Positions 143 through 26,200 of a stretch of 64,000 nt of DNA are shown here, piece by piece (positions within the stretch are counted from its first letter, which is position 1; each line of letters starts with the position of its first letter). Position numbers and translations under genes: made by a program. The notes under the pieces are model-generated. The model ran no database searches. It saw only the letters and a program-made list of their open reading frames with translations, and had not been told where the DNA came from. Location: NCBI RefSeq assembly GCF_949628265.1, contig NC_088790.1, forward strand, positions 7,630,545 to 7,694,544, in the 5' to 3' direction. The stretch is from Cloeon dipterum (lineage: Eukaryota > Arthropoda > Insecta > Ephemeroptera > Baetidae).

Positions 143-7409
<7,267 letters not shown>

Positions 7410-10400: not shown

Positions 10401-12687
10401 TTGGTTTAAATCAACTAAACTCGTTTGAAACACTCGCAAATACAAAATTAGTCCGATTTTGCTTTTTTTACGAAACGTTAATATACGAGCAACGAGATCG
10501 ATTTTTCGTTCCAAGTACTTACTTTTGTACATACATTTCGGGGGGAAATGGATTAATATTACGAAAGAGATACACAAAATACACGCCAATTTGTACCTGG
10601 CTGCAGCCATTATTCCACTACTGAATTCATTCAAAAGTGTGCTCGTGTGTCTGTCTACATTTGAAGCGCGCGCGCAGTTATAGAGATCCTAATAATTGAT
10701 GATCAGAATAAATAATGGTTTTGAAGCGCAAGCTTCGATTTAATAAAAAGCGGTTAGACCTAGTTGATCAATTGAATTGTAAACTGAAAGCGAGTAGCGA
10801 AACTTTTTTATGCAATTAGAGAGTGCGTTCGTAATTACCTTAGCTAGCTTTTGGAACGAGCAGAGTAGACGCGGCAAAAACAGATCAGTTATTTGTAAAA
10901 AGTGGTTTTTGCATGAAAATTATTACATTTAAATTTTCAAGCACCCCTCATAGCTAACGAGTTGACAATTAAATAGCGATTTAAACTTTAAGAGAATTAG
11001 CTGCTGAATTAAAGCGCCCTCGCATGAAAGACAGAATGATAAATCATTATAAAATACTGACAAAGGAAAAATGTGGAGCATAATACCACGCGTTGTAAAC
11101 ATTTTGTTTCAAGAAAATGGTGCTTTCACGAACACACACGTTAAGCTTTTATGATTGTGGATTTTTACTTGCAAAAAGCTTTGCAGCGTTGTGCCCTAAG
11201 AAGAAAAATCAAACTGAACGTAAGCACTCATTGAATTTTTCACAGCAGTTGATTTGTCATGTCAGATAAATTGTATTGTAACTTATTCAAAGAAGCTGCA
11301 AAACTCATCATAAGACTGATGAAAATGTTAAAAAATATCCAGCAACAAATCGCCAGAGAATATTGTTGTGGAAATGACAACACAAGAATTATTACTGACC
11401 ACGTTAATTCTCATATCAATGTTTTCGGCCAATTTTCCTCTTTTTAAAACATATTCAATTTCAACACGGTTTTGCCGTCATTGCTTGCAGACGAACATTC
11501 GCGATGTTGATTTTATGAATGTTAAATGAATGTAAATTACAAAAAAAAAATGAAAACAAAGCGGCTTTCGGTGTCATCCAAAGTAAAATATCGCATATCT
11601 GGGACGTTTGAAATTTTGCCAACTCAAAAAAGTCGATGAACGTATAATAGCAGGATATTCATTTTCTGTGATTTTCAATTTGGTGATTTGTTTGTACGTG
11701 TAAATAGAAAGAAAGTATGCTATTGATCGTGAGAAAATACTGTGTACGAAAGTCTTTGTTCAATTACGAAATAAAAAGGATGCTTCAGTAAAAAAGAGCA
11801 ACTTCTACGAGATATACAACTAATTGTTATTATGATAACGCATCATCCTCATTCTCAGTATGACTTGTCATGATATTATTTTGCAATAAACACGCTGGCA
11901 CAAAACGACTAGTTTTATTAATTCATTTCTCACTGAACTCTCGAAGGTTTTTTACACAAGAATAAACTAACAATAAGTTATAGGAAAGACTTAGTTACTA
12001 AGAAATTAAGACTGACTCAATTTCATGTTATTATTTTAGCTAGTTAAAATCTGTTATTTAATTTCCAATATAATGATTTTCATCAAAATTTGTCAAAAAA
12101 ATTCACAGCCCATTTTATGACTTTAGAATACTTCCGATGTGCGTAAGATCTGTTTAGTGCATAGCAATCAAAGACCTATGGTTTAAAAATGGACAAAAAG
12201 CATAAATTATTACTTGAAATAAACTTTTATTGAAAATTGAACAACTATAATTAAGTCCCTCTGATTATCACAAAAATTTATTTCAGGATTAAATATGAGT
12301 AATGAATGATGTGAAGCTCTCTCTCTCCCTCTCATGGTCAACCAACAATGCACAGTGTAGGCAATATTAACAAAAACCTATGTTTTCAATCATGTTTCCC
12401 CTGTTCCCCTCATTTGACTGACATACTTACTGGAATGCGGAGATAATTTGTACATGGTTGCAACATTGTTCCATTTTAACATCATGTGCTACTTAGAAAA
12501 AACAATTATGCAGATTTGGCAGTGTATCTCGACTAAAACCAGTTAGTTGAAGACATCCTTATAATTAAAGTTCAGCTGTTAGCTGACATTATTTTTAAAT
12601 GGATTGATATGATAGTTGCAAGAGAATTTAATTGTTTAAAAAGGCACTGCATCTAGTATCACATTTAATTTTGTGCCATTTTGTTTT
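7410..12687. other. Intergenic stretch between sei and CDK2 3' ends
   Basis: About 5.3 kb of AT-rich DNA between two convergent genes, with no coding segment I can support. The first part is presumably the sei 3' UTR, with a canonical AATAAA at 8490-8495 about 1.1 kb after the stop. The right end should hold the CDK2 3' UTR: on the minus strand an AATAAA lies at 12226-12231, about 460 bases past the CDK2 stop. Short ORFs here (8145-8405, 10380-10634) have no recognisable content. Confidence 0.5.
12226..12231 (-). terminator. Candidate CDK2 polyadenylation signal
   Basis: Canonical AATAAA on the minus strand, about 460 bases after the CDK2 stop codon. No other canonical hexamer was noticed closer to the stop. 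Position-based inference only. Confidence 0.35.
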
Positions 12688-15600
12688 TCAGCGTTGCTTT
12701 TGCTCATTGATAGGAGGAGGGGAAACAATTTCCGCTTTGAGCAACCACGGGTGTTTCAGTGCCTCCATAGCAGTTATTCTTTGATCAGGATCATAGGTCA
12801 GCATGCCCTGAAGAAATCGATTAATTATTATTTGAAACTCTGGATGTCAAGAAAATTTTCTTACCAGGAAGAGATCGAGAGCATCTTCGGGTAGCTCTGG
12901 CAGCATTTTGTGGAGATTGTTCATTTTCCACTTGGGGAATTGCGGTTTGAATGATCCCAGTTTAGTCACTCCAGGCCAGGTTGACTCATCAGGAGTGCCA
13001 AGAGTTCGAAAGATGCGGAAGAGCTGGTCAATTTCAGAGTCACCAGCAAAGAAGGCTTTTCTCTGCAGCTGATATGAATTCATAAGAACCGCTAAACCGC
13101 TACAAAATTAGCACCTACCAGCTCAGCGAAAATGCAGCCAATGCTCCAAATGTCCACGCTGCATGTGTAGTAAGTAGCGCCCAGCAAGATTTCTGGCGCT
13201 CGATACCAAAGGGTGACGACTTCATGGGTGTAGTTCTTGAACGGCACCACAAACGCTCTGGCCAAACCAAAGTCAGCAAGCTTTACTTTTCCATTCTTCA
13301 TGTCAATCAAAATGTTCTGCGGTTTCAAATCTCTGTGGAGGATTCGATTGATGTGGCAGTATCTGATGCCCTCAGTCATTTGGCGCACAAAACTCTGCAA
13401 ACGAAACTCGTGAGTAACCTCATATAGCCATCGGACGGAGATGGGTTACTTACTCGAACAACATTTGTGGGCACAGCCATCCCGACACAATCAAGAAACT
13501 TCTTCATATCCATGTCTAAAAACTCAAACACCATGTAAAGCTTCTTCGTGGGTGGGACGTGGACAATGTCCATCAGAGAGACGATGTTGTCGTGCTTCAG
13601 TCCTTTTAGCAAAGCGATCTCCCTGATTGTTGTACTGGGAACGCCTTCGCCCGTTCTGCAAGCATATTTTGTTAGTGAATAGCAAATTCTCAGCGCAGTT
13701 AGCAGCTGACCGTTTCTTCTCAAAAGCCTATAATCCTCAATTTTATTATATAGCCTTGGTTATTGTATTAGTTTTTAACATTCAGTTACATAAGTCGAAT
13801 CACATAGTATTGTAAAACGATCCTAGTTTTAAAAGCACTTAAGAATATTACTCGAAACTTGTTCAAGTCACAAAATTAATGATGCAGCAAAACAAGCAAC
13901 ACAAGACAATTTGCAATGCTGGAAAGATAATTCAAAAAAGCTGTTGGATTAATTTCCCAGTGGAAAAGAGAAGTTAGCAGCGAGCGAGAAGTGGTTAGTC
14001 GCCGATTGGTTAGTAGAGAGGGGGCGAGGGGCTAAGCTGAATCGTGTGGTGCTACGACCACGGCCACTACCAACGCATGCACCATCCGATTCAGCGGTGC
14101 CACGCAGCCCATGAGGAGCAACACTTTCGAACCAGGCCTCTTCGCAAGTCATGCACACCACCAACTTAGTTTGTTAGTTAGAATGTTTGTTTGTTTGTTT
14201 GTCGTTAGAACGGTCCAATCAGAACATTATGTTTGCAAGTAGTAGTGTAAGCCATGACAGCACACATCAGCGCACAAGCACAAAAATATGATGAGCTTAG
14301 CATGTAAATAGATGATTGGTCCTACTGAAAAATTGTCATTCCGTTTATTGACATTAAGCACAAGAAATTTGCAAACCACAGATTTTATAAATTCAACGCC
14401 AGATAAAGTATTAATTCACATTTTACACATTACAAGCTGTTTAGTGGTAGTCCAAAAATTATTTTTGAGATTGCTATGAATTACAATAATTATATTTCTT
14501 TTTGAAAAAAAATTATCCTAACACTGATTTGCAACCTCAATTTAGTTAAGATTTTCACAAAAAATGGTATTAATGCTAACAATGTTTAACAAGACTAAAG
14601 TGCACTTAAGTCAATTGAAGAAATATTAAAATCGACAATTTTCTAAATTAAAACATGCAAATGAGAGAGGTATTAAAAGAGGACACGGATAAAAAGCGAC
14701 CCTATATAATATTTTTAAAAAATGCTAGCTGACAGTCTATAAATTCATAGATCAACGGATACGATTCTTGTTATGCGAGACTAAATCTGTTAAAAGAAGC
14801 TGAATGAAAAATTCAGGAGAAAACTGCGACGCTGAAAAAGCAGCGGCCGCTTTTCTTTCTTTTCACCCAGAGCAGGTTAAAAAGCAAGCAAAACAGCACC
14901 CTTTGATGTTTTCAAGTACATTCAGAGACGAGAAGTGAGGAGCGAGAGGGTTGCATAGCAACAAAAAATCCCCAGCTCGGGTCCGTGTTAATCACCTAAG
15001 TGCTAGCGCCAAATCAGCCCGAAATAATTCCGCCAACCCACCCCAACTGCAGGCGCAAGTGCAAAACAGAAAATCTAGAAATCAAACCATGAAATTGACC
15101 GTTACAAATAGCAATAATCGGCGAAAACCGAGTGGGGAGATGGTGGGGGTCAGCATGCAGCAATTCGAAACAACGAAAACAAACAAATTGACAAGAAGCG
15201 TGGCGCAGGGTGCCTGTCAGCTGCGACCGAGGGGCGGCCGGGGCCCTCGGGGTCCGAGAGGCGCACCAACAGCGGTTGCTTGGGTTTCCCGAGGCCCGCG
15301 AAGGACACGCTACGGCCGAGGGCGAATGCAACGCCATTTCCCTCCGAAACATCCCTTGGCTCGACTCGCACTGGGGGATGAAAATAAGCATCGATAATCG
15401 CGCGCGCCAGAGTCACCTGGCATGTAAACAGAGCATCACGAGCGGCGGCGTTTGGCGGGAAAAGGACGGCCCTCTGCGCAGGACAGTGGCGGGCGCGCAA
15501 ATTTTTCGCTTTCGACAAAACGCGGAGATGAAATAAAGCCGCCGAACTAAATTGCCAATTACGTCACACACGCACGCCGGCAGGAATTTTTTGTGCTACT

Positions 15601-17668
15601 CGCGCGCGACCACTTCTGCATCCTTGCCCGATGAGATAAGCTACTTCCTGTGCCTGGGAGATTGCTTTATTGTTCACCAGCCAGCCTGCCGAGCACATGG
15701 ACCACCAGGTTTCGCGCAGGACTGAGAACGGGTGTTCAGCGGCACCAGGACATCAGATCTGCGTGACTTAAAGAACTCTCAAAAGGGGAATCGCCGCGTG
15801 TTTTTAACCTCTCAAGATACCACATATATTTATTAATTAAGATTAACTGAATAATCAAGGATAGGAAATAAAATAAACCAACACAACCACAAACAATAAA
15901 GAGACAATAAAACAAAACAATATTACAAAAACTACAACCTTTCTCTACAGGCAAAGATTTCTACACGACTTACACAATACCAAACACATAATGGGGACGA
16001 AAATAACACCAAGCCAGCAAGTAGCGGTGATATCGTTCTCGGTTGGGGGTTGGCCACACCGACTAAAAAACTCCTCTCTTCCCATTTCGGAAACAGCCAT
16101 GCTGGAGTGAAGGAACTCCAACTGTGATATGTGGTTTCTCTGGACCATACCACGGTACAAGAGTTCCTACGTCCAACACCACTAACTAGCAGACGCAAAC
16201 TAACGACACAGGTCGGGTGCTATTTGAGTCATGCGAGGTGCTGGAACTTCAGCCGTGATATGGCGCTAGACAGGTGGACATACCACGGTATTGAAGTTCC
16301 TACAGCTAACTACTCAATTTATGTACTTCTAAAAACAGCTACGGTTCAACTAGAAATTAAATAAAAAAATCAAACTTGATCGAGTTCATGCGACAACAGA
16401 AAAATGGTACACTTGCTAAACATTGATTCATAATTAATAAAAGGATTTTTAACTACATAGCTGAAAATTAACTTTTATAAAAATCCAGAACATTTTTCCT
16501 TGGTACAGAGCAGATTTGGTTGCCACATAATCAATGTGATATGGACTAATATAAAGCAAATCACAAGAGATTATGGGGCGTCCACATCCACAATCTCGAC
16601 TATTTCCTTGGCGAAAGAAAAGAAAAATGTAGTTATTTAAATGAGGAAAGCAGTGCGTTTCACTGTAGGCTGCAGTTTTAACACAAATTTTGAATTTTCT
16701 CAATAGAGCATAAAGCTCTACAGAAAATTTTACAACACAATGAAATTATTTATTATTAAAAAGCTAATAATTGGTGATGTTCACGGTGGTGGCACGCCAA
16801 AAAGATTGAAGGAACTCCTAATTGTGATATGAACAGGAATTAACAAGTCACAATCAGGAGTGCCCGAGTCTGTCGGCGCAAATTTCGCTGCAAAATAGAT
16901 ATCATTCGGTCGCATTCTGAAGATGACTTGACAAGGATGACGGATACTGGGAATGTGATATGACCTAGAATGCAGCAAATCACATCCCCAGCGACCGCAC
17001 CCTCAGCCAGCATAAAGCTTGCTCTCCAGGTATTTCTCCACTGAAGCCGGTGGATTGAGCAATGCCTGTTTCGAAATCTCAGGGCGACGGGGGATTAATT
17101 TCACAACACATTTTTCCCTAAAATTTCACAACCGACTACCTGGCGTCGAAGACGACGCAAGTGAATAGGCGACAAGCCATCTTTCAGTTTTGGGATTAAG
17201 GAGGCCGAAATAAAATTGAATTGAAATAAATCTATTTATGTACATACATTCACAGTAAATGTGCGGATAAACACGAAGTAAGGACAGGTTTACGATAAAA
17301 TATTATTCCATATCAAGAGCCTGGTTTAATGGGACAGAGGCATATTAAAATGCTGCATTTCTTGTGGTAGAAATTAAAGAAATCAGAATCATGTTTGTGC
17401 TACAGGTGTGGCTGATAATTAGCGCGGGAAAGTTAATTTGGCGAAATGGGCCGCTCATAGCCCGAATCGTCGAGCTATTTTTGGATGCTTTTGAGAAGAA
17501 ACGACAAACGCTTGAACAGTCATGCTAAAATAGTTAGACAAGATGAACTTACGGCTTGAGTGTGATCTTTTTGAGGGCGACGTACTCGTTCGTCTCGACA
17601 TTGCGGGCCTTGTAGACGATGCCGTAGGTGCCCTCACCGATTTTCTCGATCCGCTGGAACTTATTCAT
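12688..17668 (-). CDS. Cdk2: Cyclin-dependent kinase 2-like Ser/Thr kinase
   Basis: Cyclin-dependent cell-cycle kinase. Five exons on the minus strand, in phase: 17668-17553, 13655-13454, 13394-13119, 13068-12865, 12807-12688 (stop TGA); 305 residues, close to the usual ~300. Seen: ATG then [20 protein letters not shown] (glycine loop with the inhibitory Thr-Tyr pair), VALKK lysine, the cyclin-binding helix as PSTTIRE, catalytic [14 protein letters not shown]-loop [14 protein letters not shown] (activating Thr), [20 protein letters not shown] and WPGV. The last motifs fit CDK2 better than CDK1 (which usually has LGTP/LRTP variants and VLMQE-type stretches), but I cannot run a tree. The Ala-to-Thr change in the PSTAIRE helix is unusual. 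The first intron (17552-13656) is 3.9 kb and contains a microRNA-like hairpin cluster in the sense orientation. A DRE motif lies about 280 bases upstream of the ATG. Confidence 0.93.
14185..14202. repeat. (GTTT)n microsatellite
   Basis: Four and a half copies of GTTT inside CDK2 intron 1. Confidence 0.8.
15190..15620. promoter_or_regulatory. CpG-rich block in CDK2 intron 1, possible internal promoter
   Basis: This block is strikingly GC- and CpG-rich compared with its AT-rich surroundings. It contains TTTGGCGGGAAA at 15451-15462, a textbook E2F/DP site, and GCATCGATAATCG near 15388, an incomplete DRE-like core. Several overlapping long ORFs on both strands here are what GC-rich DNA produces by chance. 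A second promoter for a shorter or alternatively started CDK2 transcript is the simplest reading. An enhancer or a separate transcript is also possible. Confidence 0.45.
16103..16176 (-). ncRNA. microRNA-like hairpin 1, miR-2 seed
   Basis: On the minus strand the sequence folds into a stem of more than 20 pairs: TAGGAACTC near the base pairs with GAGTTCCTTC, and CCGTGGTATG pairs with CATATCACAG near the loop. The 3' arm product would start at 16129 with UAUCACAGUUGG and run to about 16109. Bases 2-8, AUCACAG, equal the seed of the miR-2/13/6/11 K-box superfamily, whose mature strand is also on the 3' arm. It lies in CDK2 intron 1 in the sense orientation. Confidence 0.75.
16235..16308 (-). 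ncRNA. microRNA-like hairpin 2
   Basis: Minus-strand hairpin: GGAACTTCA pairs perfectly with TGAAGTTCC, then a two-base bulge, then CCGTGGTATG pairs with CATATCACGG with one mismatch. The predicted 3' product starts at 16260 with UAUCACGGCUGA and ends near 16240. Its 3' half (AAGUUCC) resembles hairpins 1 and 4, pointing to tandem duplication. The seed AUCACGG differs by one base from miR-2. Confidence 0.7.
16516..16585 (-). ncRNA. microRNA-like hairpin 3
   Basis: Minus-strand hairpin: GTGGACGCCCCATAATC pairs, with a few mismatches, with GATTATGTGGCAACC, and TGTGATTTG pairs with CATATCACA. The predicted 3' product starts at 16541 with UAUCACAUUGAU and ends near 16522. Same register as the neighbouring hairpins; seed AUCACAU. 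Confidence 0.7.
16803..16872 (-). ncRNA. microRNA-like hairpin 4
   Basis: Minus-strand hairpin: ACTCCTGATTGTGACTT pairs with CATATCACAATTAGGAGT with one or two mismatches, and an imperfect lower stem continues for about eight bases. The predicted 3' product starts at 16829 with UAUCACAAUUAG and ends near 16808. Seed AUCACAA; its 3' half GGAGUUCCUUC is the same as in hairpin 1. Confidence 0.7.
16934..17006 (-). ncRNA. microRNA-like hairpin 5
   Basis: Minus-strand hairpin: GCTGGGGATGTGATTTG pairs with CATATCACATTCCCAGT, almost without mismatch. The loop is 12-16 bases and the lower stem imperfect. The predicted 3' product starts at 16960 with UAUCACAUUCCC and ends near 16940. It shares seed AUCACAU with hairpin 3 but has a different 3' half. 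Confidence 0.72.
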
Positions 17669-21736: not shown

Positions 21737-23277
21737 GTAAGCAGGCGTTATTTGATTACAGGGTTTTTGCTTTTATCGAACACTTTAATAAATAGGATAA
21801 CATCAAAGCAAGTAAGTGGTTTTATAATGCAATAACTGCTTATAAAAACCGCTTGAAGGAACAAAGAGAGAAATTTCCAGATGCCTCTAAATTGCAAAGG
21901 AACTAGACTTTATCACCCTTGATGTCAGGCACCTTTCAACAGAAAGCCAATTTCCCGCAATTTATAAGGACGGAAATTAATGAAATCTCACGACAAAAGC
22001 TTAAATTAGTATTCAGGGCTCAGAGCCGCTGCAGCCTCGTTTTCTTTGATGTTTTTCTTGGTTCCATCAGCAGGCTGCTAGGGCGAATTAAAAGAGAAAA
22101 TAATTGCCGCTCCGTCTCAATAAAGTTTGACCCAAAATCATCACAGAGATTCTAAAATAGAAATAATTCAAGCACTTTATGAACGCACTGGCTACATCTG
22201 GTGTCGGATGAGAGTTTGCGGCCAGTTCCAGATTTTAAGACCCACGAGCGTCTCACGTTTTGTTTAGGAAAATAAACATTCCCATAAAGAATAAAAACCG
22301 TGTGTTAGCTAGAGAAGACTCGTGCTGGCTGGGATTGTGATGTGCGCGTCGCTCTGTTGTTTTTCTTATCCGCTTTTACACTGGGCAAGCCAATGACCAG
22401 AGGGGATGTTTTCGCGCTGCTTCATGCTCACGGCTATATAGTGACGTAAAACTCACAATTGCTTATTGTTATGCATATGAAAATAACATGACCAGCCGCT
22501 CTTTCGTGCAAATGGACGTATTCGCAAAGCAAACATTTACTAACGGCTAACGGCACGAGGGTTCCAGTCAGCACTTTGTTTAAAGAGTTTGAGAGTGCCG
22601 CACGCAGTTCCAAGAAACGGGTGTGCAGATCGTTTGAAGGAATTCACACATTGCTCTCCCTTTCGAAGTATGCATTAGCTGATTGGCCGAATACCTACCG
22701 CAAAAAAACAGAAAATAATACATTTTACCAACTCCTACCGCAAAAAGCTAGGTACAATGATGCGTAAAAATATAAAAAATGTATAGGAAATTAAACTAAC
22801 AGACAGGCGCGAGCAATTTAGTGAATAAAAATTAACAAATTAATGTAATTATTAGAAATAAGGGAAATAAAGATAAATATAGCGGTGGACTTTTATCACA
22901 ATGAGTGATGCAACGCAATTTTACGTCATTTTGCAAGCAATAATGGCTATTTCAAGAAAAAGAAAGAAATACATTCGCAAGTCAAATTACATTAACTGAA
23001 TTTCTTTAGTCTGCGGGGAAAATTAAATCAGAATGGTCAGCTACCAGCGAAAAATTCTGACAATGAGAGAAAAATCAGATGATACACGTTCTCGCAGTGT
23101 CCAGCAGTACTTTTGCATCCAAAACAAAATTCATAACCGCAGTATTAACTGCAAAGAATTCTGAGTCTGGGATTTTTAATTAGTTTAATATATAATATGC
23201 GTATATTATAAACACTTCACAAACATAGAAACTAATATTTATTATTAATGCATTTTTTCTTAAAATTTTCAGTGAAG

Positions 23278-26200
23278 ATGTTCATCGCTGTGAAAATAGG
23301 CTACGCTATGATCATAGTGTGTCTATTACTGATGACTTGGGCCATTATGGTCAAGGCCAGTCCTGTTGCACTGGGCAGCGGCGTTATTAACTACCCAATG
23401 TCACTCGGGGCTCAGCAAGATGCTTCTGACTCGATTCAGTATCCTCCTTGTGCTTTCAACCCCTTGTGCACCTGCTCGAAAGCAGTGCCGGACCTTGGCA
23501 TTGTTTCTTGCCGGTTAGTAATTTTTGTGCGTGCTTTTCTTTTTTTACGATCGATCTTTTGCAGGGATGTACCCCTAGCGCGACTACCTCCGTCACTAAA
23601 TTCCTCTAAGATATTCATTCTCCGCTTAGAGAATAATGGTCTGCGATGGATTGAACCACAGCTCTTACAGTCCACTGGTGAGACTAATATTATTCGATAA
23701 TTTTATGAATTATGAAAATAATTTTTAATTAAAATAGGACTTTATCGCCTCCAAATCAGTGACAACCCTCTACCGGAAATTCCCGATGACTCCCTCATGG
23801 GCCTTGAGAGATCTCTGTGGGAACTTGCCTTGCAGAGGAACAAGTTGACATCTGTTCCTAATAGAGCTATTCGCTATATGCAACGACTTAGGCTTCTCGA
23901 TCTCACAGGTTGGAGCACTTTGTTCAAATTCCCAATGTTTCTCATATCGACTTTCATATGTTTAAAATAAAATATGCGCGTGACGGCTTTCAAGAAATAA
24001 TTATTGTTTATATTAAACATTATTTGCAATTTTTTGTCTAATTATTAAAAAACTACTCGAACTACCTTGTTTAAACGCCTTAATAATTATATTTGCAGGA
24101 AACGACATTTACGAATTATCTTCTGATTCTTTCCGTGGCTTGGAACAGTCGCTCTTAACTCTGGTACTTGCTGACAACTCAATTAATGCTCTTCCCCCTG
24201 GCGCGTTCAGCGAACTGAGCAGACTGGAAACTCTGGATCTGCGAGGAAATGCTCTTCAGAACCTCGACGCCTCAGCTTTGCCGCCAAGGATTCAACACCT
24301 CTCGCTGGCTGACAACTTGCTATCGAAAATGCCGGTGCGACTTTTTAAAATTAAACAATTGTTTACAAGATAAACACGGCTCGCTCTCATTTATCAGGTT
24401 GCCGCTTTGAAAACCGGTATGCAGTCCCTGGACCTGTCGAGGAACAGGCTTGTGAAGATCTATCCTGAAGAGGAAGATGACGACACCGATCTCGAGTCGA
24501 GCGTCGTTGGTGACACCACGCAAGGAGGAAACAAGAAAAACAAAGGAAATAGCGACTACCCTAGAATTTCTTTGGATGTGCTACGCCTGGAATATAACTT
24601 TATTACTGAGCTTGAAGAGGCTTCTTTCCGAACCTTCACTTCGATTAATTATACCTTCCTTGACGGCAACCCAATCAACACGCTTCACGTAAGAAAAAAT
24701 AATAATTAATTTGTAGAAAAAATTGTCGAGTCATTTTTTAACAGAACTACGCTTTCAAAGATGCGACCATCCGTGACCTTTCAATGCGCGACTGCGGTAT
24801 CAACACACTTCCACTAAACGTATTCGGTGGACTGGAGAACAGCTTGCACTACCTCGACCTGAGCTCTAACAATCTGAAAGAGCTGCCTCACGGTATGCTC
24901 GCCCGTCTTCCAAACCTGCGTGGTCTCAATTTGAGGGACAACCGCGTGAAAATCGAACCCAACATGTTCGACCACGATTACTCGGGCGCAATTCCCGTCA
25001 ATGTGAAACAGAGCAATAGAAATGCTGACACTTCAAACAAGAAAAATGTTATTGGAAACGCGAACAACCTGCACCACTTGGACATTTCTGGCCGAGAAAT
25101 GGAAATGTTCTCCTCGGTGCCCGAAATGATGGAGCCGTGGACAGGCCTTCGTGAGATCTCTTTTGGAAGGTTCAAGGGTGGCAAGAAATTGTCTCCTGAG
25201 GACTTTACTGAATTAAGCCCGGACGTTGAGGAGCTGAATTTCATCAATTCTGGCCTTACTGGAATCAACGCTCACGCATTCCGCAATGCTCGCGGCGTGA
25301 GGCGGCTCGACTTTTCTGAGAATTCTATCAAGAATTTGGACAATGATGCATTTGTTGAAATTGGACACTCCCTGGATGAGCTGAGAATGCACCGTGCTCT
25401 TAAAATGGATTCTATACCTGCCAAAGCATTTATGCACCTGACTGGCACCAAGGAAATCGATCTCAGTGCTAACGGTCTGAAAACTATCCCAGAAAGCTCA
25501 TTCATGGCTTTGAAGAGTTTAAGGCGCATTCGCATGCACGATAATCACATTGGGCGCATTCCCAAGGGTCTTTTCCTTCCCGAAACACACATGTACCTTG
25601 AAGATGCCGACTTTTCGTTTAATGCGATCGATCACGTTTATGTTGACACGTTCAAAGGTTTGACTTCTTTGCGGCAAATCCGCCTTGATGACAATAAAAT
25701 AGCTGCAATGGAGCCAAAATCCTACGCTGATTTGCCACGCTTGCGATTTTTGGATCTGCAAGGCAACCGCGTCAATGAACTGAACACCGACACCTTCCAA
25801 AATCTGCCGGAGCTTGAGGAGCTGGATATTTCATACAATATGCTCAAACAGCTTAATTTCGCTGCCCTCGACCAGGTAAACATAATAAGGTTATTTTTAG
25901 ATTTTGTTTTCGCTATTTATCAAACTATCTTTAAAGGTCGGAACACTAGCATCTCTTTGTTTCAACGTTAGTCACAACAAGCTGACTGAGCTAAAACCAG
26001 TAAACGTGATGATTAGCAATAACAATAATAACTACAACAACCAAGGCAATTACCACGTCAACGTCAAAACTATGGACATTAGTTTTAACAACATCACGGA
26101 AGTATGTGAAGCTGTAAAATATATTGCGCCGACATATTTATTTTAATTCTATCCTCTCAGATTGCTGGAGGATTTTTCCGTCCAATCGAAACGGCTCTGA

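Follow-up and report, generated by a model that had tools for sequence, protein, structure and literature searches.

The Drosophila microRNA mir-11, located in the final intron of dE2f1, is expressed together with its host and limits cell-death genes (PMC4109884), so that a cell-cycle host for a microRNA with the AUCAC seed core has a precedent in flies. An intragenic Drosophila microRNA, mir-92 in jigr1, is reported to lower its own host gene (PMC4441384). The stretch of Cloeon dipterum DNA analyzed here (64 kb; the window) contains five hairpins in an intron of a CDK2 gene. It is very probable that they form a polycistronic intronic microRNA cluster with mature 3p strands of ∼22 nt, with a plausible self-limiting loop on the host.

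The host gene

The gene was assigned on the minus strand as follows.

17553..17668, minus strand: first coding exon of CDK2 (best PDB match CDK2, E 1.1e-12)
13656..17552, minus strand: cluster-bearing intron 1 of CDK2 (donor GT at 17552, acceptor AG at 13656; read by eye)
12688..13655, minus strand: remaining CDK2 coding region, interrupted by more introns and ending in the stop at 12690-12688

The frame across the intron 1 junction, read by eye, is ITLKPTGEGVP. The open reading frame at 13092-13445 also had CDK2 as its best match in the PDB (E 5.5e-42), and CDK3 was a close second in the PDB matches of exon 1 and the downstream exon. A Pfam Pkinase match on 13376-13759 scored 26.3 bits, under the cut-off of 31.7, and no Pfam match was obtained on 12847-13107. 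Intron 1 spans 3.9 kb and is the first coding intron, with the hairpins lying ∼550 to 1450 bases into it. As the initial annotation had proposed, all five are inside this intron and sense to CDK2.

The intron also holds a further hairpin lacking a UAUCAC arm at 14026-14104 on the minus strand (-37.4 kcal/mol, z -3.5, with a similar z on the plus strand). Near CDK2, at 23236-23970 on the plus strand, is a leucine-rich-repeat gene, with LRR_8 detected on 23722-23970 and nothing on 23236-23700, which we take by eye to recall chaoptin.

Among the matches listed in a search of the main text of largely open-access papers, nothing relevant to CDK2 as a host of such microRNAs was seen. Fragments of each of the five mature strings, and of the E2F hairpin string described below, were absent from the PMC main text that was searched.

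Structure of the five hairpins

The hairpins are listed in the direction of transcription.

16933..17004, minus strand: hairpin 1 (transcribed first); seed AUCACAU, in the predicted mature 3p strand UAUCACAUUCCCAGUAUCCGUC starting at 16960
16802..16873, minus strand: hairpin 2; seed AUCACAA, in the predicted mature 3p strand UAUCACAAUUAGGAGUUCCUUC starting at 16829
16514..16585, minus strand: hairpin 3; seed AUCACAU, in the predicted mature 3p strand UAUCACAUUGAUUAUGUGGCAA starting at 16541
16233..16304, minus strand: hairpin 4; seed AUCACGG, in the predicted mature 3p strand UAUCACGGCUGAAGUUCCAGCA starting at 16260
16102..16173, minus strand: hairpin 5; seed AUCACAG, in the predicted mature 3p strand UAUCACAGUUGGAGUUCCUUCA starting at 16129

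The primary description of these elements proved accurate. TATCAC begins the 3p strand exactly at 16129, 16260, 16541, 16829, and 16960 on the minus strand and is directly preceded by CA in all five, and the opposing 5' arms are GTGGTATG (16129 and 16260), GTGATTTG (16541 and 16960), and GTGACTTG (16829). The dimensions given for the stems and loops were only partly borne out. The predicted pairs, in order from 16129 to 16960, number 20, 24, 22, 19, and 25, reaching the described 20 or more in four hairpins and falling short in one, and the predicted terminal loops of 14, 9, 7, 12, and 8 nt fall within the described 12 to 16 in two hairpins and outside it in three. Within the window, CATATCAC occurs five times on the minus strand and once on the plus strand. 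A CNNC motif starting 16 to 18 nt beyond nucleotide 22 of the 3p strand is found in two of the five.

Folding no better than shuffled sequence had been named as a reason to discard the hairpins; all five folded better (1000 dinucleotide shuffles each). The minimum free energies of hairpins 1, 2, and 3 were -40.2 (z -7.2), -25.5 (z -5.3), and -22.8 kcal/mol (z -4.8), with 0/1000 shuffles as good in each case. Hairpin 4 gave -27.2 kcal/mol (z -4.3, 2/1000 as good) and hairpin 5, the weakest, -23.1 kcal/mol (z -2.7, 8/1000 as good). Viewed as microRNA precursors, that is, as stable single hairpins with the mature strand in one arm, all five lay below the shuffle mean and four had z < -4.

The pairs 16960/16829 and 16260/16129 have the same spacing of 131 nt, and their second members, 16829 and 16129, have a common tail. 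Local alignment of the two blocks scored 58, whereas 500 mononucleotide shuffles averaged 27.6 and reached 61 at best (P 0.002). Because this score is driven largely by the hairpins themselves, duplication of a two-hairpin block is suggestive only.

Paired substitutions and strand

The five hairpins were aligned in five rows, all of them paralogues, with the alignment fitted to the structure. Standard pairs occupied 85.1% of the 94 pair cells (0/500 shuffles as high), and 7 of 19 pairs were changed on both sides (3/500 as high). The covariation score was 0.321 versus 0.174 (2/500 as high), and there were 13 further pair types (19/500 as high). When the structure was slid along the alignment, 24 to 48% of cells were paired. 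The paired substitutions among these paralogues favor a folded RNA, providing support rather than proof.

In 72-nt segments, the minus strand of hairpin 1 folded much better than the plus strand (-40.2 versus -25.1 kcal/mol), and the plus strand of hairpin 2 was also the weaker (-23.6 versus -25.5). Hairpin 3 gave -22.8 on both strands, and the plus strand was slightly better for hairpins 4 (-29.6 versus -27.2) and 5 (-25.2 versus -23.1). Therefore, with the plus strand equal or slightly better for three hairpins, production from the sense strand is not dictated by the fold.

Rarity in the genome

The string CATATCACR occurs 1831 times in the 190-Mb genome (967 and 864 on the two strands), which gives an expectation of ∼0.004 on one strand of 0.83 kb, where five were observed. 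Folding energies of nine other CATATCACR sites, two of which were counted twice, ranged from -2.5 to -13.4 kcal/mol versus -22.8 to -40.2 kcal/mol for the cluster. A two-arm pattern, GTGATATGN{10,26}CAWRYCAC (on the plus strand, GTGATATG, 10 to 26 bases, and CAWRYCAC), was drawn from the five hairpins and hence recovers them by construction; it had eight matches genome-wide, the five and three others, with three matches for the reversed-pattern control. The three extra matches folded poorly (-19.3, -14.1, and -14.7 kcal/mol).

A fixed hairpin filter was then applied, requiring a minimum free energy of -22 kcal/mol or lower and upstream pairing of at least 14 bases among the first 20 of the 3p strand. 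It was run on 68 TATCAC sites from the window and 21 loci, where overlapping loci double-count a few sites and sites near locus ends were dropped. The filter was passed by 11 sites: the five of the cluster, five canonical mir-2/13 hairpins, and one in locus L015. The last lies inside an open coding frame (77 amino acids, no Pfam match) and was discarded as a microRNA candidate. A DNA search of the genome, in which simple repeats and highly frequent words are passed over, returned only the self-match for the 911-bp region. Of the ten contigs of this genome, five measure 33 to 43 Mb and five less than 1 Mb; none of seven telomere repeats examined occurred as three tandem copies within the first 3 kb of any of them. 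The clustering of the five hairpins is not a matter of chance.

Relationship to known microRNA families

The classic mir-71/mir-2 cluster was found in the same genome on another contig, C3, at ∼7295060-7296002 (locus L014, 4062-4978), where mir-71 is accompanied by five mir-2/13 hairpins, four of which score above the cut-off of RF00047. The CDK2 cluster is thus separate from it, as had been suspected. The assignment of the CDK2 hairpins to a miR-2 superfamily fared less well. The core UAUCAC is present throughout, and the predicted seeds, AUCACAU, AUCACAA, AUCACAU, AUCACGG, and AUCACAG in transcription order, share AUCAC, but the exact miR-2 (K-box) seed AUCACAG at 3p nucleotides 2 to 8 is found in one hairpin of five (16129), no hairpin reached the gathering score of any Rfam family, and the mature tails did not match those of the genome's own mir-2/13 (from nucleotide 9 on, 0/25 comparisons at P < 0.05). 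The best RF00047 score was 24.8 bits, with a cut-off of 45.5; other subthreshold Rfam matches in the cluster were mir-994 (23.6 bits), mir-2567 (21.9), and mir-308 (20.6). A genome search with RF00743 (mir-308) gave four matches, none over the cut-off and none in the cluster region.

Whole-hairpin scores, seed included, were 2 to 9 over the 25 pairs of CDK2 and canonical mir-2 hairpins. Within the CDK2 cluster, the scores were 26 for 16129/16260, 19 for 16829/16960, 18 for 16829/16129, 15 for 16541/16960, and 12 for 16541/16829, and the remaining five of ten pairs scored only 4 to 6. When the canonical locus was searched with a covariance model built from the five, none of its mir-2 hairpins was detected on its own strand. 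The predicted matures are miR-2-like in their seed core only.

A resemblance of hairpin 16960 (16935-17002, minus strand) to vertebrate mir-23, with which it has AUCACAUU and an opposed 5' arm in common, scored 29.9 bits (E 0.0006, cut-off 52). Homology was rejected; the likeness is probably convergence, since just one of the remaining four, 16829, was listed for mir-23 as well (18.7 bits).

A relationship to mir-11 was examined in the same way. RF00813 gave the CDK2 hairpins at most 19.3 bits, with a cut-off of 45. The tails of 16260 and 16829 resembled that of fly mir-11 at uncorrected P values of 0.006 and 0.044; these were the only 2 below 0.05 in a set of 60 tail comparisons with known microRNAs or non-cluster microRNAs of this genome. 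No tail of the CDK2 hairpins matched the genome's own mir-11-like tails at P < 0.05.

The latter belong to two mir-11-like hairpins (CAUCACAGUCAGAAGGCU) standing in tandem near 3897 and 4023 on the plus strand of locus L016 (-46.9 and -47.6 kcal/mol), which scored 39.4 and 30.5 bits with RF00813, under the cut-off of 45. Upstream of them an E2F winged helix is encoded, as is part of a CC-MB domain whose remainder appears as a subthreshold match at 3454-3651, and a C-terminal exon was read by eye downstream. Judged from sequence, this genome carries a mir-11-like hairpin pair in an intron of an E2F gene. Neither of the two AGCACCA matches of L016 belongs to a mir-998-like hairpin, and GTGAT is absent from the 835 bases after the E2F stop (read by eye).

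Putative target sites in the CDK2 message

Two 8-mer sites for the predicted matures lie downstream of the CDK2 stop.

12657..12664, minus strand: ATGTGATA, 8-mer site for hairpins 1 and 3, presumed CDK2 3'UTR
12266..12273, minus strand: TTGTGATA, 8-mer site for hairpin 2, presumed CDK2 3'UTR

The first base of the ATGTGATA site is the 24th beyond the stop. The TTGTGATA site is flanked by AATAAA signals at 12282-12277 and 12231-12226, is 3 nt past the first, and would therefore stand at the extreme end of the message if the UTR is short. The 3'UTR was taken as 12687-12215, its end being placed after the second AATAAA once the sites had been seen. The two sites, which match three of the five hairpins, compare with 0.049 expected in this assumed UTR (20,000 dinucleotide shuffles), giving a P of 0.00085 for two or more that is optimistic because the UTR end was chosen afterwards. 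In the whole window, such 8-mers number 13 on both strands, five of them being the complements of the hairpins themselves.

The predicted duplex of the hairpin-3 mature at ATGTGATA was the most stable (-18.8 kcal/mol, P 0.002 versus shuffled tails); that of hairpin 1 at the same site reached only -10.4 kcal/mol, and that of hairpin 2 at TTGTGATA -12.9 kcal/mol (P 0.083). As a lead, the data suggest self-repression of CDK2 through the two putative sites.

Interpretation and alternative explanations

In the reading that we prefer, the CDK2 pre-mRNA would carry five Drosha/Dicer-type hairpins, whose 3' arms would be selected to give ∼22-nt microRNAs starting with UAUCAC whenever CDK2 is transcribed. 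The copies have the seed core AUCAC in common and show divergence in their tails and at seed positions. Messages with (A/C/U)UGUGAUA or CCGUGAUA sites would be repressed, and CDK2's own message, which appears to contain two such 8-mers, is plausibly among them, which would create a self-limiting loop in dividing cells.

The same hairpins could be genuine microRNAs driven by an intronic promoter of their own, with CDK2 hosting devoid of regulatory meaning. The 3.9-kb first intron has room for such a promoter, and a putative E2F-like TTTCCCGC match lies in it at 17431; the common sense orientation of all five to CDK2 speaks against this arrangement, which we regard as unlikely. That the elements are not microRNAs at all but inverted repeats devoid of RNA function, such as palindromic DNA or a mobile-element relic, would fit the comparable folding of both strands for 16129, 16260, 16541, and 16829. 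It is highly improbable given that the arms vary between copies yet remain paired, that the 3p start and its preceding CA are invariant, that no second copy of the region was found in the genome, and that the geometry is the same as that of the genome's canonical mir-2/13 hairpins.

An affinity with mir-2944, whose hairpins would have drifted after moving into, or while remaining in, the CDK2 intron, appears doubtful. Passages of the literature place mir-2944 in Daphnia, a beetle, and mosquitoes, and none was found at the cut-off anywhere in this genome, its three matches being canonical mir-2 hairpins (25.4 and 23.8 bits) and the plus strand of 16129 (21.8 bits). The 5' arms of 16129 and 16260 have AGGAACTC and AGGAACTTC in common with mosquito 2944b-5p and 2944a-5p (P 0.025 and 0.010), the 5' arm of 16829 gave P 0.025 and 0.031 with mosquito 2944b-5p and 2944a-5p, and the tails of 16829 and 16960 gave P 0.037 and 0.025 with the beetle 3p strand, all uncorrected. 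These are 6 of 20 uncorrected comparisons, however, and the E2F mir-11-like hairpins also reach 0.029 and 0.030 with 2944a-5p, comparable values that lower the odds of this affinity. The tails were no better than shuffles against Daphnia mir-2944 (P 0.19 to 0.95), the CDK2 hairpins scored 16 to 22 bits (highest on the plus strand) with RF04054, whose gathering score is 56, and the available passages of the mir-2944 literature name no CDK2 host.

Returning to an intronic cluster made with its host, processing of the hairpins would place microRNAs inside the gene of an S-phase-driving kinase, in parallel to mir-11 in E2F1. As the seeds differ between copies, a single host intron would act on a number of related sets of targets, with the host message possibly belonging to one of these, and a self-limiting circuit at G1/S is directly testable. 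A wider scheme, in which CDK2 carries its own brake and E2F hosts mir-11-like hairpins, so that the G1/S module is wired to UAUCAC/CAUCAC microRNAs at two nodes, is tentative and somewhat unlikely.

Comparison with known systems

With jigr1/mir-92, as reported, the cluster would have in common an intragenic microRNA acting on its own host; the host is unrelated. The seed of mir-92 is likewise unrelated to those of the CDK2 hairpins. With mir-2944, which accompanies mir-309/mir-286 in mosquitoes and is below its family cut-off everywhere in this genome, the 3p start UAUCACAG is common to one hairpin, and AGGAACUY is found in the lower 5' arm of two (16129 and 16260).

The canonical mir-2/13 hairpins resemble those of CDK2 in the 3p start UAUCACA, in hairpin geometry, and in the presence of several copies within 1 kb. 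CA precedes the 3p strand in three of the five canonical copies of this genome and in all five CDK2 hairpins, whereas in the latter the seed core is not followed by GCC, and the seed itself departs from canonical mir-2 in four of the five. In mir-11/dE2f1, a microRNA with the AUCAC seed core likewise lies inside an intron of a G1/S gene (PMC4109884). There, a single mir-11 (with mir-998) occupies E2f1, whereas CDK2 holds five hairpins with varied seeds.
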